Of a stretch of 32,054 bases of DNA, positions 13,390-30,691 are shown piece after piece (positions within the stretch are counted from its first letter, which is position 1; each line of letters begins with the position of its first letter). Origin of the DNA: Candidatus Nomurabacteria bacterium RIFCSPHIGHO2_01_FULL_36_23 (GTDB taxonomy: Bacteria > Patescibacteriota > Minisyncoccia > Phycocordibacterales > UBA9973); the NCBI GenBank assembly GCA_001786745.1, contig MFTF01000011.1, forward strand, positions 1-32,054. Reading direction: 5' to 3'. The notes under the pieces were generated by a model. It did no database searches. It was not told the DNA's origin and worked only from the letters and a program-made list of their open reading frames with translations. The position numbers and the translations under genes are program-made.

Positions 13390-14289
13390 TTAAGTAATCT
13401 TATAATCCATTTCTTTTCCGTTTTCGGGTATGATTTTTTTAATTATAAATTGATTATTTTTTAGAATAGCGTCGGTAATTATTATTCTTTTACCATTCTT
13501 AAAAAAGAAAATTCGGGGCCAAGTAGCGTAAGCTCGGAATTTATTGTATAAAACACTTGGAGATTCTTTCTCCAAATTAATCAACCCGTCTTCTTTTTTG
13601 ATTTTCTTACAAACGGAAGCCTTGCTTCCGTTTTGTGGAGTTGCTTTAATTGTACCGCTCACAAAATCCGGCAGAATTTTTATCAGAAGTTCTCCGCCGA
13701 TTTTTATCAAGCGCTTGCGTAAATCCGAAGCTTTTTCGTCTGGAAATATTACCACTTTTTCTTGAGCAATGATGGGTCCAGAATCCATTTTTAATTCCAT
13801 TTTTTGTATAGTCACTCCTGTTTCCGTATCACCATTCAAAATAGCAGATTCCACCGGCGAAGCCCCGCGGTATTTCGGAAGCAGAGAATAGTGAATATTT
13901 ATAGAGCCCAATTTCGGCATATTTATAATATTTTCCGGTATTATTTTTCCGTAAGCGACTACGATAAACAAGTCGGGATGAACATTATTTTTCAAAACAC
14001 GCATACCAATCTGCTGATTGGTTGCTATGCTCGGCCCGTCAGCCTGTGCAATGTTTTTAAAAACAATATTCATCCCTTCTTTTAAATCTTCTGGTTGAAT
14101 GTAAGAAATATTATTTTTTTCCGCCCAAATTTTCACTGGTGGGGAAGTAACGAGCATTTTACGTCCTTGCGGTTTGTCCGGCGAAGTGACAATAAGTGAC
14201 GGGACATAGTCATTTTGTTTTAAAATCTCTAGGGTTTCCGAAGCCACATCAGGTGTTCCAAAAAACGCAAATTTTAATTCCTTATTCAT
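13390..14289 (-). CDS. fmt: Methionyl-tRNA formyltransferase
   Basis: FAFFGTPDVASETLEIL, INIHYSLLPKYRGASPVESAILNGDTETGVTIQKM, IKKEDGLINL. Start taken at MNKELKF; the track's 14325 start runs into a palindromic element. Confidence 0.96.
   Translation of the reverse strand: MNKELKFAFFGTPDVASETLEILKQNDYVPSLIVTSPDKPQGRKMLVTSPPVKIWAEKNNISYIQPEDLKEGMNIVFKNIAQADGPSIATNQQIGMRVLKNNVHPDLFIVVAYGKIIPENIINMPKLGSINIHYSLLPKYRGASPVESAILNGDTETGVTIQKMELKMDSGPIIAQEKVVIFPDEKASDLRKRLIKIGGELLIKILPDFVSGTIKATPQNGSKASVCKKIKKEDGLINLEKESPSVLYNKFRAYATWPRIFFFKNGKRIIITDAILKNNQFIIKKIIPENGKEMDYKIT
13611..13633. repeat. Hairpin inside fmt: AAACGGAAGC-CTT-GCTTCCGTTT
   Basis: Perfect 10-bp arms with a 3-nt loop. Confidence 0.75.
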
Positions 14290-14290
14290 T

Positions 14291-14980
14291 TTATTTAGGC
14301 CCGCCCGCATCGCTATGCGAAGCATTGCGGGCAGGTAGTTCCTCTTTTATATCTTTAGCATGATCAATAAAAAGTATGCCGTTTAGGTGTTCTGTTTCGT
14401 GTTGAAAAATCTGGGCGAGCAGGCCGGACGCTCCACGAGTAAATTTTTTCCCATTTTCGTCATAAGCTGTAATTGTTGCTTTTTTAGATCTAAGAGTTTT
14501 GCCATAAAACCAACGAACAGAAAGACAGCCTTCCGGCATCCACTCTTTTTCACGAGAAAGTTTTGAGATTTTCGAGTTGATAAAAATAAGGTCTTTTATT
14601 TTTTCTTTTGTTTCAATTTTTTCTACTATATTATTTTCATTTAATAATATCTCTTCTTCACTATTAATTTTCTTTTCCCCGCCTGCCTGCCCGATACGCT
14701 GAAGCGAGTCATGCGGGCGGGCATCAGCTATACTGAAAGCATTGCGGGCAGGTCTTTTTTTACCGAAATCTTTTGCGAATATTTTACCAGATACAACAAA
14801 AATCCGCAGCGCATATCCGATTTGTGGCGCTGCTATGGCTACGCCATCATCTTGGCTCTTAAGCGCGCTAGACATCTCTTTTAGTATTTTTTTAATTTTA
14901 GCGGTTTTTATTTTTTCGACGAGTACTTCCTTCGCAGTTTGACGTAAGACCCTTGCTTGTTTTTGAAGAATCTTCTTCAT
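14291..14980 (-). CDS. def: Peptide deformylase with an internal palindrome-encoded insertion and a palindrome-encoded C-terminus
   Basis: GVAIAAPQIGYALRIFVV, EGCLSV and QHETEHLNGILFIDH motifs; atypical segments PARNAFSIADARPHDSLQRIGQAGG and PARNASHSDAGGPK. Confidence 0.95.
   Translation of the reverse strand: MKKILQKQARVLRQTAKEVLVEKIKTAKIKKILKEMSSALKSQDDGVAIAAPQIGYALRIFVVSGKIFAKDFGKKRPARNAFSIADARPHDSLQRIGQAGGEKKINSEEEILLNENNIVEKIETKEKIKDLIFINSKISKLSREKEWMPEGCLSVRWFYGKTLRSKKATITAYDENGKKFTRGASGLLAQIFQHETEHLNGILFIDHAKDIKEELPARNASHSDAGGPK
14298..14335. repeat. PARNA palindromic element, short form, at def 3' end
   Basis: Minus strand CCTGCCCGCAATGCTTCGCATAGCGATGCGGGCGGG: 10-bp outer stem plus inner TGCT/AGCG. 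Confidence 0.85.
14678..14752. repeat. PARNA palindromic element, long/composite form, inside def
   Basis: 75 nt GC-rich block on the minus strand, starting CCTGCCCGCAATGCT like the short copy; multiple nested inverted repeats (CCTGCCCG/CGGGCAGG, CCCGCC/GGCGGG, CGCTtcAGCG). Confidence 0.85.
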
Positions 14981-17463: not shown

Positions 17464-20400
17464 TTAAATCTCCTTTACTGCTTCTATTATAATACTTTTT
17501 TCGCCGTTGCGCAAAGAAACTTTACCGGAAAAGGCAATGCATTTTTCGGCAACTAATATATCAATTGATTCTTTAAATATAGAAGGGAAAGCCACAGCTT
17601 CTATGGAATCGGTTAAATCCGCAATTCGCATAAAGGCCATTCTTTCATTATTTTTAGTAATTACCTGCCGGAGAGTTTCTATTATTCCAGCGATGGTTAT
17701 TTGCATGCCGTTGCCTATTTCTTTTTTTATTTTTTTGATGTTCATCTCTCGACTTTCTAGTTTTTCGCGAATGCGATCAAGCGGATGCCCGGAAATATAA
17801 AGTCCCAGCAATTCTTTTTCCCAAAGCAATTTTTCGGCTTGGGTTGCTTGGGGGCTATCTCGCAATTTGAATTCCGGAGCTTTCACCAAAGTTTGTTCAC
17901 CAAAAAGAGAATTTTGATTTTCACTTTGCTTTGACGATTCATGATTGTAAAGAAGCATGTCTTCTAGATTAAATAAAAGTATCCCACGTTCACCCAATTC
18001 GTCAAAACTGCCGGATTTAATTAATGCCTCCATGGATTTTTTATTTAAATTTTTATGTTTAATTCTGTCTAAAAAGTCGGTCATTGATTTAAATTTACCT
18101 CCGCCAGCTGGCGGATTTTTTCGCTCTTTTATTATACTATCGGCAATATCGGTTCCAAGGTTTTTAATAGTATAGAATCCAAATCTTATTTTTTCACTAA
18201 TGTTTTTTTCTTGATCTCTAATGACCGTGAATCCGCCATAACTCTCATTTATATTTGGAGGCAAAACCGGAATTTTCATTTTTTTGCATTCATTGATTAT
18301 TTCTGAGATTTTTTCTACATCGCCTGATTCAGCAGTGAGTATCGCGGTCATGTATTCCACGGGATAATGCGCTTTCATATAAGCCGTTTGATAAGCGACT
18401 CTGCCATAGGAAGCCGCATGCGCCTTATTAAAACCATAAGCCTGAAATGGTTCAAAAAGTTTCCAGAGTTTTTCAGCAAACTCGGGAGTTTGCCCATTTG
18501 ATATGATACCCTTGGTAAATTTTTCATACTGCGCGGCCATTTCTTTGGGAATCTTTTTTCCAACGGCCTTGCGAAATTTATCCGCTTCTTCCCAATTGTA
18601 GCCGGCAAGCTCTATGGCGCAAAACAGCAGATCGTCCTGATAAACGATAAGCCCGTAAGATTCGCCTAAAAATTTTTTCATTCGCGGATCCAGATATTTT
18701 ACAAGATTTGGATTATGTTTGCGCTTAATATATTCTGGAATTATTTCCATCGGTCCCGGTCTATAAAGGGCGACCATTGCGTTGATATCATGGATTGATG
18801 TCGGTTTTAGCTCTTTTAAATATCTTGTCATTCCGCTTCCATTTAATTGAAAAAGTCCTTCTGTTTGGCCATGAGCCAAAAGTGAAAAGGTTTTTTTATC
18901 ATCAAGCGGAATATGTTCTATGTCTATATTTATATTATAAAATTTTTTAACTAAATTTATGGCGTCTGCCAAAATTGCCAAGTTTCTAATTCCCAAAAAA
19001 TCAAACTTCAAAAGTCCGGCTTCTTCAGCGCTATACATATCGTACTGGGTAATTATTTTTCCGCCCTTCGGGTCAAATTGAGTAGGCATATAATCTGAAA
19101 TTGGCCCAGGAGCAATAACGACTCCGGCAGCATGCACGGAAATGTGCCTAACGCACCCCTCTAATTTTTTTGCCAAGTCAATTATTTCTCTAGTGTCTTT
19201 TTCATCTTTATAGCTATCTCTTAATTCAGGCACTATCTCCATGGCATGGTCTATGGTCATTGGCATACCCTGCGAACCCATGGGAATCATTTTAGAAATT
19301 CTATCACCGATGGTATAAGGATAAGCGAGAGCGCGAGAGACATCGCGTACGGCGCCTCGGGCCATCATTGTGCCGAAAGTTCCAATCTGCGCCACTCTGT
19401 CTTCGCCGTATTTTTTCTTGGCATACTCAATCATCTCATCTCGTCTGTTGTCAGCGAAATCCATATCAATATCCGGAGCTGAAGGACGGAAAGGATTTAA
19501 AAATCTTTCAAATGGAAGTTTATATTCTATGGGGTTTATATTGGTAATGCCCAAAAGGTAAGTAACCATTGATCCCGCAACTGAACCTCTGATAGCAGTT
19601 AGAATTCCATTATCTTCGGCATAACGCAAGAGATCTTCAACTACCAAAAAATAAGGCGAATATCCTTTATCAAAAATAATTTTCAGTTCATATTCTACTC
19701 GCTCTTTAATTACCTTCGTTTCCTTTATGCCAAGAGTTTTAAATCCAGCATAACAAAGCTCGCGCAATTTTTGATCAAAAGTTTTGTCACCTTCAATTTT
19801 AAAATCAGGAAAAACCCAACGACCCAACTCAAGCGCGAGATTGCACATATTGGCTACTTTTAAAGTGTTGGCGACTGCCTCTGGGATATCTTTAAAAAGT
19901 TCAATAGCTTTTTCCTCGCTAATGAAAGAGTAATCATCCTCGCCAAAAGAAAATTTATTTTCATCTTTTATATCTGAGTTTGTCTGAATGGAAAGTAATG
20001 TATCGTGCGCCTTGTTGTCATCCTCGCAAGGATAATGCGAGTCAATAGTAGCAACCAATGGAATATCAAATTTTTTGCCAAGTTTTATAATATCTTCACG
20101 GACTTTCTCATCGCCCGATATCTTGGAATGTTTTTGAATTTCCAGAAAATAATTTTCTTTGCCAAAAATTTCCTGATGCTCTTTAATTATTTTTTCCGCT
20201 TTTTCTTCATCTTTATTTGCGAGCGCGCGAGCCAATTCTCCACCAAGGCATCCGGAAAGAACTATTATTCCGTCAGAATACTTTCGCAATATTTCTTTAT
20301 CCATTCTAGGTTTGTAATAATATCCTTCTAAGTTCGCAATAGTTACAAGTTTTATTAAATTTTTATAACCTTGTAAATTCTTCGCCAACAGTGTCAAATG

Positions 20401-25420: not shown

Positions 25421-25450
25421 AAGTCGTTAGGCAAAACCTAAGGACTTTTT
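25421..25450 (+). terminator. Terminator hairpin related to the CGTTAGG palindromic family
   Basis: AAGTCgTTAGG-CAAAA-CCTAAgGACTT followed by TTT. Confidence 0.75.
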
Positions 25451-26720: not shown

Positions 26721-27743
26721 ATGTTAAATCCAAATTTAAAATTAAATCCAAAAATTTTCAATGCCGATGTTGAACAAGCGCCTATCCGAAAAGGTTTTGG
26801 GGAAGGATTAGTGAAGGCAGGGGAGGCAGACAGCAATATCGTAGCTCTTTGCGCGGATTTAACCGAATCCACCCAGATGATTTTTTTTAAAGAAAAATTT
26901 CCGGAGCGTTTTGTGGAAGTTGGGGTGGCAGAGCAAAATTTGGCAACAGTCGCTTCCGGTATGGCAACCATGGGAAAAATTCCTTTTATTTCCAGTTATG
27001 CAATGTTTTCTCCCGGGCGTAATTGGGAACAAATCAGGACGACAATAGCTTATAACGATAGACCGGTGAAAATAGCGGGCTCGCATGCGGGTATTTCTGT
27101 CGGACCCGACGGGGGCACTCATCAAATGCTTGAAGATATTGCTTTAATGCGGGTGGTGCCGAATATGGATGTGCTTAGTCCGTGCGATAGCATAGAAGCC
27201 AAAAAAGCGACACTCTTGCTTGCGAAAACCGGAAAGCCGGCTTATTTGCGTTTGGCTCGAGAAAAAACACCGATCATCACTACAGAGGAGACTCCTTTTA
27301 ATATTGGCAAAGCGGAAACCTACTGGATGCCGGATGTCGGACTGGCGCAAGTGGGAATAATTGCGACCGGCGGGCTTCTGTATCGCGCAATACTTGCCGC
27401 CAAAGAATTAGAAAATCCGCCAGCTGGCGGAGAAGGAATAAAAATTAAAGTAATGAATTTGTCCAGCATCAAGCCGATAGATGTGGAAGCGATAGTGGCT
27501 CTGGCAAAAGAAACCAGGGCAATAGTAACAGTTGAAGAACATCAAGTTGCGGGAGGAATGGGTTCGGCAGTGGCAGAAGTCCTCGCGCAAAATTATCCTG
27601 TCCCAATAGAATTTATCGGCGTACAAGACAATTTTGGACAATCCGGCGCGCCAGATGAGCTCATAGAGCATTATGGTATGGGTAAAGATTCTATCAAAGA
27701 AGCAGTAAAAAAAGTGTTAGCAAGAAAAAATAGTATAATATAA
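26721..27743 (+). CDS. Transketolase, C-terminal subunit
   Basis: RKGFGEGLVKAGEADSNIVALCADLTEST, RFVEVGVAEQNLATVASGMA, SGAPDELIEHYGM. Confidence 0.95.
   Translation: MLNPNLKLNPKIFNADVEQAPIRKGFGEGLVKAGEADSNIVALCADLTESTQMIFFKEKFPERFVEVGVAEQNLATVASGMATMGKIPFISSYAMFSPGRNWEQIRTTIAYNDRPVKIAGSHAGISVGPDGGTHQMLEDIALMRVVPNMDVLSPCDSIEAKKATLLLAKTGKPAYLRLAREKTPIITTEETPFNIGKAETYWMPDVGLAQVGIIATGGLLYRAILAAKELENPPAGGEGIKIKVMNLSSIKPIDVEAIVALAKETRAIVTVEEHQVAGGMGSAVAEVLAQNYPVPIEFIGVQDNFGQSGAPDELIEHYGMGKDSIKEAVKKVLARKNSII
27416..27431. repeat. 16-bp perfect palindrome TCCGCCAGCTGGCGGA inside transketolase C subunit
   Basis: Identical to 18100-18115; encodes NPPAGGE. Confidence 0.9.
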
Positions 27744-28158: not shown

Positions 28159-28180
28159 ACATAGGAAACTCCTATGTAAG
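28159..28180. repeat. REP-like hairpin upstream of RAYT (ACATAGGA-AAC-TCCTATGT + AAG)
   Basis: 8-bp perfect arms with 3-nt loop; 22 nt identical to 28873-28894. Confidence 0.9.
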
Positions 28181-28200
28181 TATGCTATACTACTTATTAC

Positions 28201-28842
28201 ATGGCTTTAAGAAAACAAGTTTTTGCTCCAGGTGAATACTATCATTTATATAATCGCGGTACTGAAAAAAGAATAATCTTTTTAGATCAACAAGATTACT
28301 ATCACTTTTTGTTTTTAATGTACATTTGCAATACAGAAAAAAGTATTACATTGAGAAGCGTCGGTAACGGAGAATTTTTTGAACCAGGAGAAACCATTAT
28401 TGATATAGGAGCTTTTTGTTTAATGCCTAATCATTTCCATATTCTTGTTCATGAAAAAATAGAAAACGGGATTTCCAAATATATGCGCAAATTATTAACT
28501 GGATATTCAATGTATTTTAACAAAAAATATAAAAGGACTGGAAAACTATATGAGGGTGTTTTTAAATCAACTCATGCAAATAAAGACACATATCTAAAAT
28601 ATCTTTATTCATATATACATTTAAATCCAGCAAAATTAGTTGACAAAAATTGGAGAGAAAAAAGGGGTCAAGCAACTACAAAACTTTTGCATTACGTATT
28701 GCGCTATCCATACTCAAGCATAAAAGAATATCAGAGCGGAAAGTTCAAAATTATAAACCCCATTCAATTTCCAAACTACTTCAAAAAGCCAATAGATCAC
28801 AAGAATGAACTATTTGAATGGCTTAGCGCTGATCCTTTTTAA
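28201..28842 (+). mobile_element. REP-associated tyrosine transposase (RAYT, Y1/IS200-like HUH)
   Basis: GEYYHLYNRGTEKRIIF, CLMPNHFHILV (HUH), YLKYLYSYIHLNPAK (catalytic Tyr region), YPYSSIKEY. Confidence 0.93.
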
Positions 28843-28854
28843 ATTACATAGATT

Positions 28855-28894
28855 ACATAGGAGTTTCCTATGACATAGGAAACTCCTATGTAAG
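28855..28894. repeat. Inverted REP pair downstream of RAYT
   Basis: ACATAGGAGTTTCCTATG immediately followed by ACATAGGAAACTCCTATGTAAG. Confidence 0.9.
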
Positions 28895-29929: not shown

Positions 29930-30691
29930 ATGTCTCAAAAAATAATTTTATTTCTATCATTTTTTCTTTTTTTATTTTCATATCATTTTGCATTCGCGAA
30001 TGTTGAAATCAATGAAATAATGTATGATCTCAAAACCGGCAGTGATGATGGCAGAGAGTGGGTTGAAGTTTTTAATAATTCTGACGCTCCGGCGGATTTA
30101 TCCATTTTAAAATTTTTTGAAGCAGAGACGAATCATAAACTTAAATGGATACAAGGTGATGCAAATATTCCCGCGAAGGGATATGCGTTAATTGTTTCTG
30201 ATCCTATTAAATTCAAAATTGACTGGCCAAATTTTTCCGGGATAATTTTTGACTCCAGTTTTTCGTTAAGTAATGATGGCGAAATTTTGGCCATAAAAAA
30301 CGAAGATTTATTAGTTGACCAGTATGATTATAAATCAAGTTCTGGGGGCGGGGGCGATGGTAAATCTTTACAGAAAATAAATGGATCATGGCGAGAGGCA
30401 ATACCAACACCCGGGAAAGAAAATAAAATTTCATACATACCACTTTCTCTGCCTGAAACCAAACCAACTCTGAAAAAAGCTTCTGACAAAATCGTTAGGC
30501 AAGACCTAACGACTATAACGACTATTCCTAGCGAAGAAATTGCCATGGCGCCAGAAAATAGTAGTTATTCGTATCTTTTCATCATTACTTTAATTCTTCT
30601 GCTTAGTGTCGGCGTGAGAGCAGTTTATTTCATTCGACGAAGAGGAGTTATTTCTAAAAAAGGAAATGATTTTGAAATATTAGATGAGTAA
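29930..30691 (+). CDS. Secreted, C-terminally anchored lamin-tail domain (LTD) protein
   Basis: Signal peptide; VEINEIMYDLKTGSDDGREWVEVFNNSDAPADLSILKFF is LTD-like; C-terminal TM segment followed by RRR. Confidence 0.85.
   Translation: MSQKIILFLSFFLFLFSYHFAFANVEINEIMYDLKTGSDDGREWVEVFNNSDAPADLSILKFFEAETNHKLKWIQGDANIPAKGYALIVSDPIKFKIDWPNFSGIIFDSSFSLSNDGEILAIKNEDLLVDQYDYKSSSGGGGDGKSLQKINGSWREAIPTPGKENKISYIPLSLPETKPTLKKASDKIVRQDLTTITTIPSEEIAMAPENSSYSYLFIITLILLLSVGVRAVYFIRRRGVISKKGNDFEILDE
30493..30511. repeat. Palindromic element CGTTAGG-CAAGA-CCTAACG inside LTD gene
   Basis: 7-bp perfect arms, same family as 25421-25447; encodes IVRQDLTT. Confidence 0.85.

Follow-up and report, generated by a model that had tools for sequence, protein, structure and literature searches.

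The def gene (peptide deformylase) of Candidatus Nomurabacteria bacterium RIFCSPHIGHO2_01_FULL_36_23 contains two related GC-rich blocks, which raises the question of whether these belong to the enzyme or represent an element that settles inside genes. Palindromes that code for protein have been known from Rickettsia for over 20 years, and an initial annotation of the locus likened the two blocks to these Rickettsia palindromic elements (RPEs). The window analysed here, that is, the whole stretch of 32,054 nt (contig MFTF01000011.1, assembly GCA_001786745.1), comes from a genome of 556,503 bp in 25 contigs, designated G000. Its features are listed in Table 1.

Both blocks were present on the minus strand as annotated, each starting with CCTGCCCGCAATGCT, and folding relative to shuffled sequences supported their description as inverted repeats (z=-4.5 for the 36-nt copy and z=-2.1 for the other block). 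The frame runs intact through both, in agreement with the proposal that an insert length divisible by three keeps def open, and the motifs GVAIAAPQ, EGCLS, and HETEH are retained. The internal 75-nt block kept its annotated limits but is not a single element; it consists of a 39-nt element that carries a nested 36-nt palindrome, and with the nest removed the outer element is identical to the intact 39-nt copy in locus L034. The shorter copy, annotated at 14298-14335, was confirmed with corrected ends, 2 nt of the annotated span being flank. Without this tail copy the gene would read ...EELPK-stop, the tail of its orthologues. In a sequence alignment, the internal insert falls between VVSGKIF and DLIFINPKIS, the most variable loop of Def. 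A profile alignment, used to place the loop instead of an AlphaFold model (pLDDT 40 from a shallow alignment), matched it to a region that varies among deformylases of known structure.

Table 1. Position and strand of the features discussed, numbered along the window.
Feature	Position	Strand	Description
def, peptide deformylase	14291-14980	(-)	Unbroken ORF, 229 aa, two insertions; Pfam Pep_deformylase E=2e-37
75-nt composite in def	14678-14752	(-)	Encodes PARNAFSIADARPHDSLQRIGQAGG; 39-nt element plus nested 36-nt element
Outer 39-nt element, left part	14722-14752	(-)	CCTGCCCGCAATGCTTTCAGTATAGCTGATG; part of the def composite
Nested 36-nt palindrome	14686-14721	(-)	CCCGCCCGCATGACTCGCTTCAGCGTATCGGGCAGG; inverted relative; boundary +/-1-2 nt
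Outer 39-nt element, right end	14678-14685	(-)	CAGGCGGG; part of the def composite
36-nt element at the Def C-terminus	14300-14335	(-)	PARNASHSDAGG; between EEL and PK-stop
Short in-frame palindrome in dnaE	18101-18114	(-)	CCGCCAGCTGGCGG (PPAGG); at the site where G060 dnaE (L179) has PARNAEGIASAGG
Second short in-frame palindrome	27417-27430	(+)	CCGCCAGCTGGCGG (PPAGG) in a 345-aa open frame; family relation uncertain
Dispersed 26-nt hairpin repeat	25421-25446 and 30489-30514		AAGTCGTTAGGCAAAACCTAAGGACT; copies 88% alike
Y1_Tnp/RAYT ORF	28180-28839	(+)	Within 28160-28893; flanked by its own palindrome TTACATAGGAGTTTCCTATG, three copies

An ordinary lineage-specific loop would suit this naturally variable position, and it would be carried by all Def orthologues without dispersed copies elsewhere. 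Neither is the case. When Def was aligned with its relatives, as the initial annotation had suggested, the internal insert and the tail copy were absent from all 33 other sequences (one of them partial), and a third site near the N-terminus, after KILQ, was occupied by the element in three congeners. Copies of the same DNA are also scattered over dozens of unrelated genes and over intergenic regions; these dispersed copies refute the loop explanation, whose probability we regard as negligible. In other congeners (L056, L092, L099, and L107), this Def loop carries PHPDPLLVKER-like peptides that a different repeat seems to encode. At the other end of def, the automatic start of the fmt ORF falls inside the element (MLRIAMRAGLNK, window 14288-14325), and the ATG near 14288 (MNKELKF) is more likely the true start.

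The def copies are members of a dispersed family well beyond chance. Its members are imperfect hairpins, CCTGCCCGCAATGCT...TGCAGGCGGG, of exactly 36 or 39 nt, with the sequence CCT GCC CGC AAT GCT ... GCA GGC GGG and the in-frame translation PARNA(S/T/F)...AGG over 12 or 13 codons. The two length classes comprised 66 copies of 36 nt and 53 of 39 nt, other lengths being rare and chiefly noncoding. A search of the genome and of other CPR genomes, also suggested at the outset, yielded abundant copies. The 15-mer CCTGCCCGCAATGCT occurs exactly 15 times in G000 as opposed to 0 for a reversed-pattern control, and a covariance model gave 33 matches in this genome. In the G000 species, the hosts are def, efp, rpsI, nusB, frr, lepA, pheT, rplY (L25), tsaD, scpB, and ribE, together with genes for a C-terminal processing peptidase, a thioredoxin-reductase-like protein, and a histidine kinase; pnp is a host in congeners. 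Matches were carried by 41 of 60 separately assembled congeners (Ca. Nomurabacteria). When one genome per species was scanned for exact matches to both arms, at least 117 stretches were recovered, from many CPR lineages and from records named Lentisphaerae, Verrucomicrobia, and Kiritimatiellota, some of these latter genomes holding 9-30 copies each. No match was found to known RNA families or in plasmid and phage records, and a single copy was present on each of two viral contigs. Since these are metagenome assemblies and short GC-rich repeats are prone to misassembly, an assembly or binning artefact could be suspected; however, over 40 congeners with assemblies of their own, and many other lineages, contain the element as an exact unit in frame, and orthologous sites without it are cleanly empty. 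An artefact is therefore exceedingly improbable.

Comparison of orthologues disclosed that insertion is clean at a codon junction. In pnp, 23 congeners with a readable site are empty (e.g., AAG TAT/GAT GAC, the slash marking the junction) and three carry TAT[39 nt]GA, the DNA pair being AAG TAT/GAT versus TAT[39 nt]GAC. In efp, 23 congeners read like AAC AAA/GGT GAA, while G000, G012, and G019 have 36 nt there (AACAAA/GGT versus AAG[36 nt]GGA). Further empty and occupied pairs were identified in trmD, gyrA, murE, rpsI, and L156/L135, some of these gene names being assigned from a reading of the sequence. No target-site duplication was detected at the pairs compared. Coding copies are preceded by A in 58 of 98 cases and followed by G in 70 of 98 (p=3e-26). 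Among the flanking residues, K often stands ahead of the element and E or D behind it. The same lean was seen in noncoding copies (-1 A, p=0.012; +1 G in 14 of 36, p=0.003).

Some junctions appear to have been used more than once. The PNPase element is identical at 39 of 39 positions in G063, G033, and G008, a low divergence that is partly a matter of ascertainment because the copies were found by a search for intact elements, which is biased to conserved ones. Across the same carriers, synonymous differences affect 11-12 of the 19-20 conserved codons around it. The carriers fall in separate parts of the PNPase tree, with three changes forced by well supported branches. Polyphyletic carriers of an identical 39-nt element point to repeated insertion at one junction, which would be the simplest reading of these sequences; repeated precise loss, or short-tract conversion or allele transfer, could also have generated the pattern.

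The element also inserts into itself. Composites of 72 or 75 nt were found in L002, L011, L014, L022, L119, L137, L163, and def, all eight in low-GC genomes and all multiples of three, and in each a related 36-nt palindrome has been inserted into one element, either in the loop or close to the right arm; nests like that of def were seen in L002 and L119. Dispersed copies, empty sites, and nests thus demonstrate, if indirectly, that the element is mobile. We consider it very probable that the element is a non-autonomous (MITE/REP-like) mobile hairpin of 36 or 39 nt that leaves no visible target-site duplication and prefers an A/G(A) junction.

The loop pair 16-26 of the hairpin is a standard pair in 125 of 129 copies compared with 60.6 in shuffles (A-T 57, T-A 56, G-C 8), although these counts are sequences rather than independent events and could be inflated by a few founder types. 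An initial alignment, which was small and had a structure that left this pair out, showed no covariation. Codon 6 contains position 16 and codon 9 contains position 26, so the peptide switches jointly between S..D, T..V, and A..A, and the covarying loop pair forces changes such as D to V. Because such swaps are chemically unlike, the constraint would act on a nucleic-acid hairpin, and it is this hairpin, rather than the peptide, that appears to be conserved.

Coding copies are nevertheless far from random in phase. Among low-GC CPR loci, lengths divisible by three account for 107 of 109 coding copies versus 21 of 37 noncoding ones (Fisher p=1.6e-9). One frame and orientation is shared by 99 of the 107. 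Of 144 distinct copies, 108 lie in one frame inside open frames of 120 aa or more. In the high-GC genomes of the Lentisphaerae, Verrucomicrobia, and Kiritimatiellota records, long open frames often arise by chance, which makes the coding context of the copies there ambiguous. This uniformity, together with the occupation of the same PNPase and EF-P junctions in separate species, is what would be expected if the peptide were a functional tag or linker recruited by selection into many proteins, the mobility of its DNA being incidental. The loop-pair swaps argue against it, as do the noncoding copies, the many orthologues (most of them) that lack the element, and the copies read otherwise: inverted PACNSYAESIAGR in L188 and PACNSYAVSIAGR in L128, and LPAMLRIAMQAG in frame +1 in L208. 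At a single position of one gene, L124 and L188 appear to carry oppositely oriented copies. A recruited tag is accordingly improbable. The exceptional phases and orientations suggest that selection, and not the insertion mechanism, sets the frame.

A mobile hairpin whose insertion is not itself frame-aware would account for these patterns. The common 36-mer, as read from its sequence, is open in five of six frames. In the prevailing frame and orientation, its 12 or 13 codons without a stop yield a hydrophilic Ala/Gly/Ser/Asp peptide, and insertions into loops or tails would likely survive selection. Copies in other frames, or in lengths that are not multiples of three, would persist mainly between genes. 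The peptide would then be a by-product and the hairpin the entity that is maintained.

How such a hairpin moves was approached through the REP sequences, which are imperfect hairpins of 20-40 bp, multi-copy and sometimes intragenic, tagged GTAG or CGTC, with Opitutus terrae and R. conorii RPE-4/RPE-6 among the examples and O. terrae holding the most intragenic GTAG repeats of its survey (PMC3733652). The element is likewise a 20-40 bp imperfect multi-copy hairpin, its DNA fold leaves a 5' CCTG tetranucleotide ahead of the stem in the place of the REP tag, and no target duplication was seen at the sites compared. G000 encodes 6 Y1_Tnp ORFs, and counts of RAYTs (PF01797) correlate weakly with element counts (rho=0.36). 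These features would fit a REP proper, moved by a host RAYT (TnpA_REP) tyrosine transposase. REPs, however, are mostly intergenic and carry the GTAG/CGTC tag, while the element is mostly intragenic in CPR and untagged: GTAG, CTAC, CGTC, or GACG occurs near an element end in 17 of 175 copies, the upstream side being A-rich. A cognate RAYT flanked by the repeat is also lacking, as no element directly flanks the RAYT in 43 RAYT loci, nor in 11 more. The nearest copies in L418 and L421 lie some hundred bases from the RAYT, and the C2 RAYT is near a copy solely because that copy sits inside efp, a site occupied too in G012 and G019. Several carriers have no RAYT match, such as G085 with 23 copies and G008 with 8, and G066, with 13 RAYTs, lacks the element. 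We therefore regard a REP in the strict sense as rather unlikely. The absence of duplication and the hairpin substrate suggest a single-strand process of the HUH/Y1 type, and movement of the hairpin by such a mechanism, with a putative enzyme acting in trans, is a tentative proposal of somewhat less than even probability.

Other palindromes were observed in and beyond the window. The Y1_Tnp/RAYT ORF with its three flanking palindromes looks like a separate REP/RAYT unit, and the 26-nt hairpin repeat is dispersed. In L003, on the minus strand, the element is immediately preceded by another GC-rich stretch resembling a palindrome, CCCCCCGAACGGTCGGGGG, upstream of RNase J. The dnaE palindrome CCGCCAGCTGGCGG is possibly a shortened relative of the element. 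As a second family it was dropped, with two copies in the genome, both within the window.

The likeness to RPEs proposed at the outset holds for behaviour. RPE and WPE repeats are palindromes found in frame in unrelated, often essential genes, at solvent-exposed sites and in hosts with small genomes, and orthologues may share the site (PMC10969869, PMC2229807, PMC3767692). The element shares the in-frame palindrome in unrelated, often essential genes, the single frame, and the variable or terminal sites. In contrast, RPEs measure approximately 100-150 bp and the element 36 or 39 nt (12-13 aa; composites 72 or 75 nt). It also differs in occurring in CPR and PVC-type genomes, in its exact empty sites without target duplication, and in its self-nesting. 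No Rickettsia or Wolbachia records were among the exact-pattern matches listed. ERIC, Correia, and QMITE1 are non-autonomous repeats able to fuse in frame (PMC2229807, PMC10969869). They are unlike the element in being approximately 100-200 bp, with terminal repeats, often with target duplication, and mostly intergenic, and the target-site duplication of a DDE-transposon MITE is missing here. Given the RPE length, the REP tag and location, and the MITE duplication, the element would be a protein-coding palindromic element outside these families. A largely open-access literature, without the original RPE papers, contained no report of such an element from CPR bacteria. The best reading is a selfish, protein-coding palindromic element that behaves like an RPE but is shorter and resides in other phyla. 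It is possible, though on balance doubtful, that one hairpin common to several phyla repeatedly enters essential genes at identical codon junctions in a target-selective and duplication-free manner, with gene bodies as its main habitat.

To our knowledge, how RPEs enter genes without breaking them has long been unexplained, partly as those insertions are old and shared. The element described here supplies dozens of near-identical copies, precisely vacant sites in closely related genomes, a shared junction filled in separate lineages, nests, and a minimal unit of 36 nt. Its spurious starts and odd loops are a warning for annotation. Common to CPR and PVC-type genomes, it is a source of new segments in the translation and transcription proteins of CPR bacteria.
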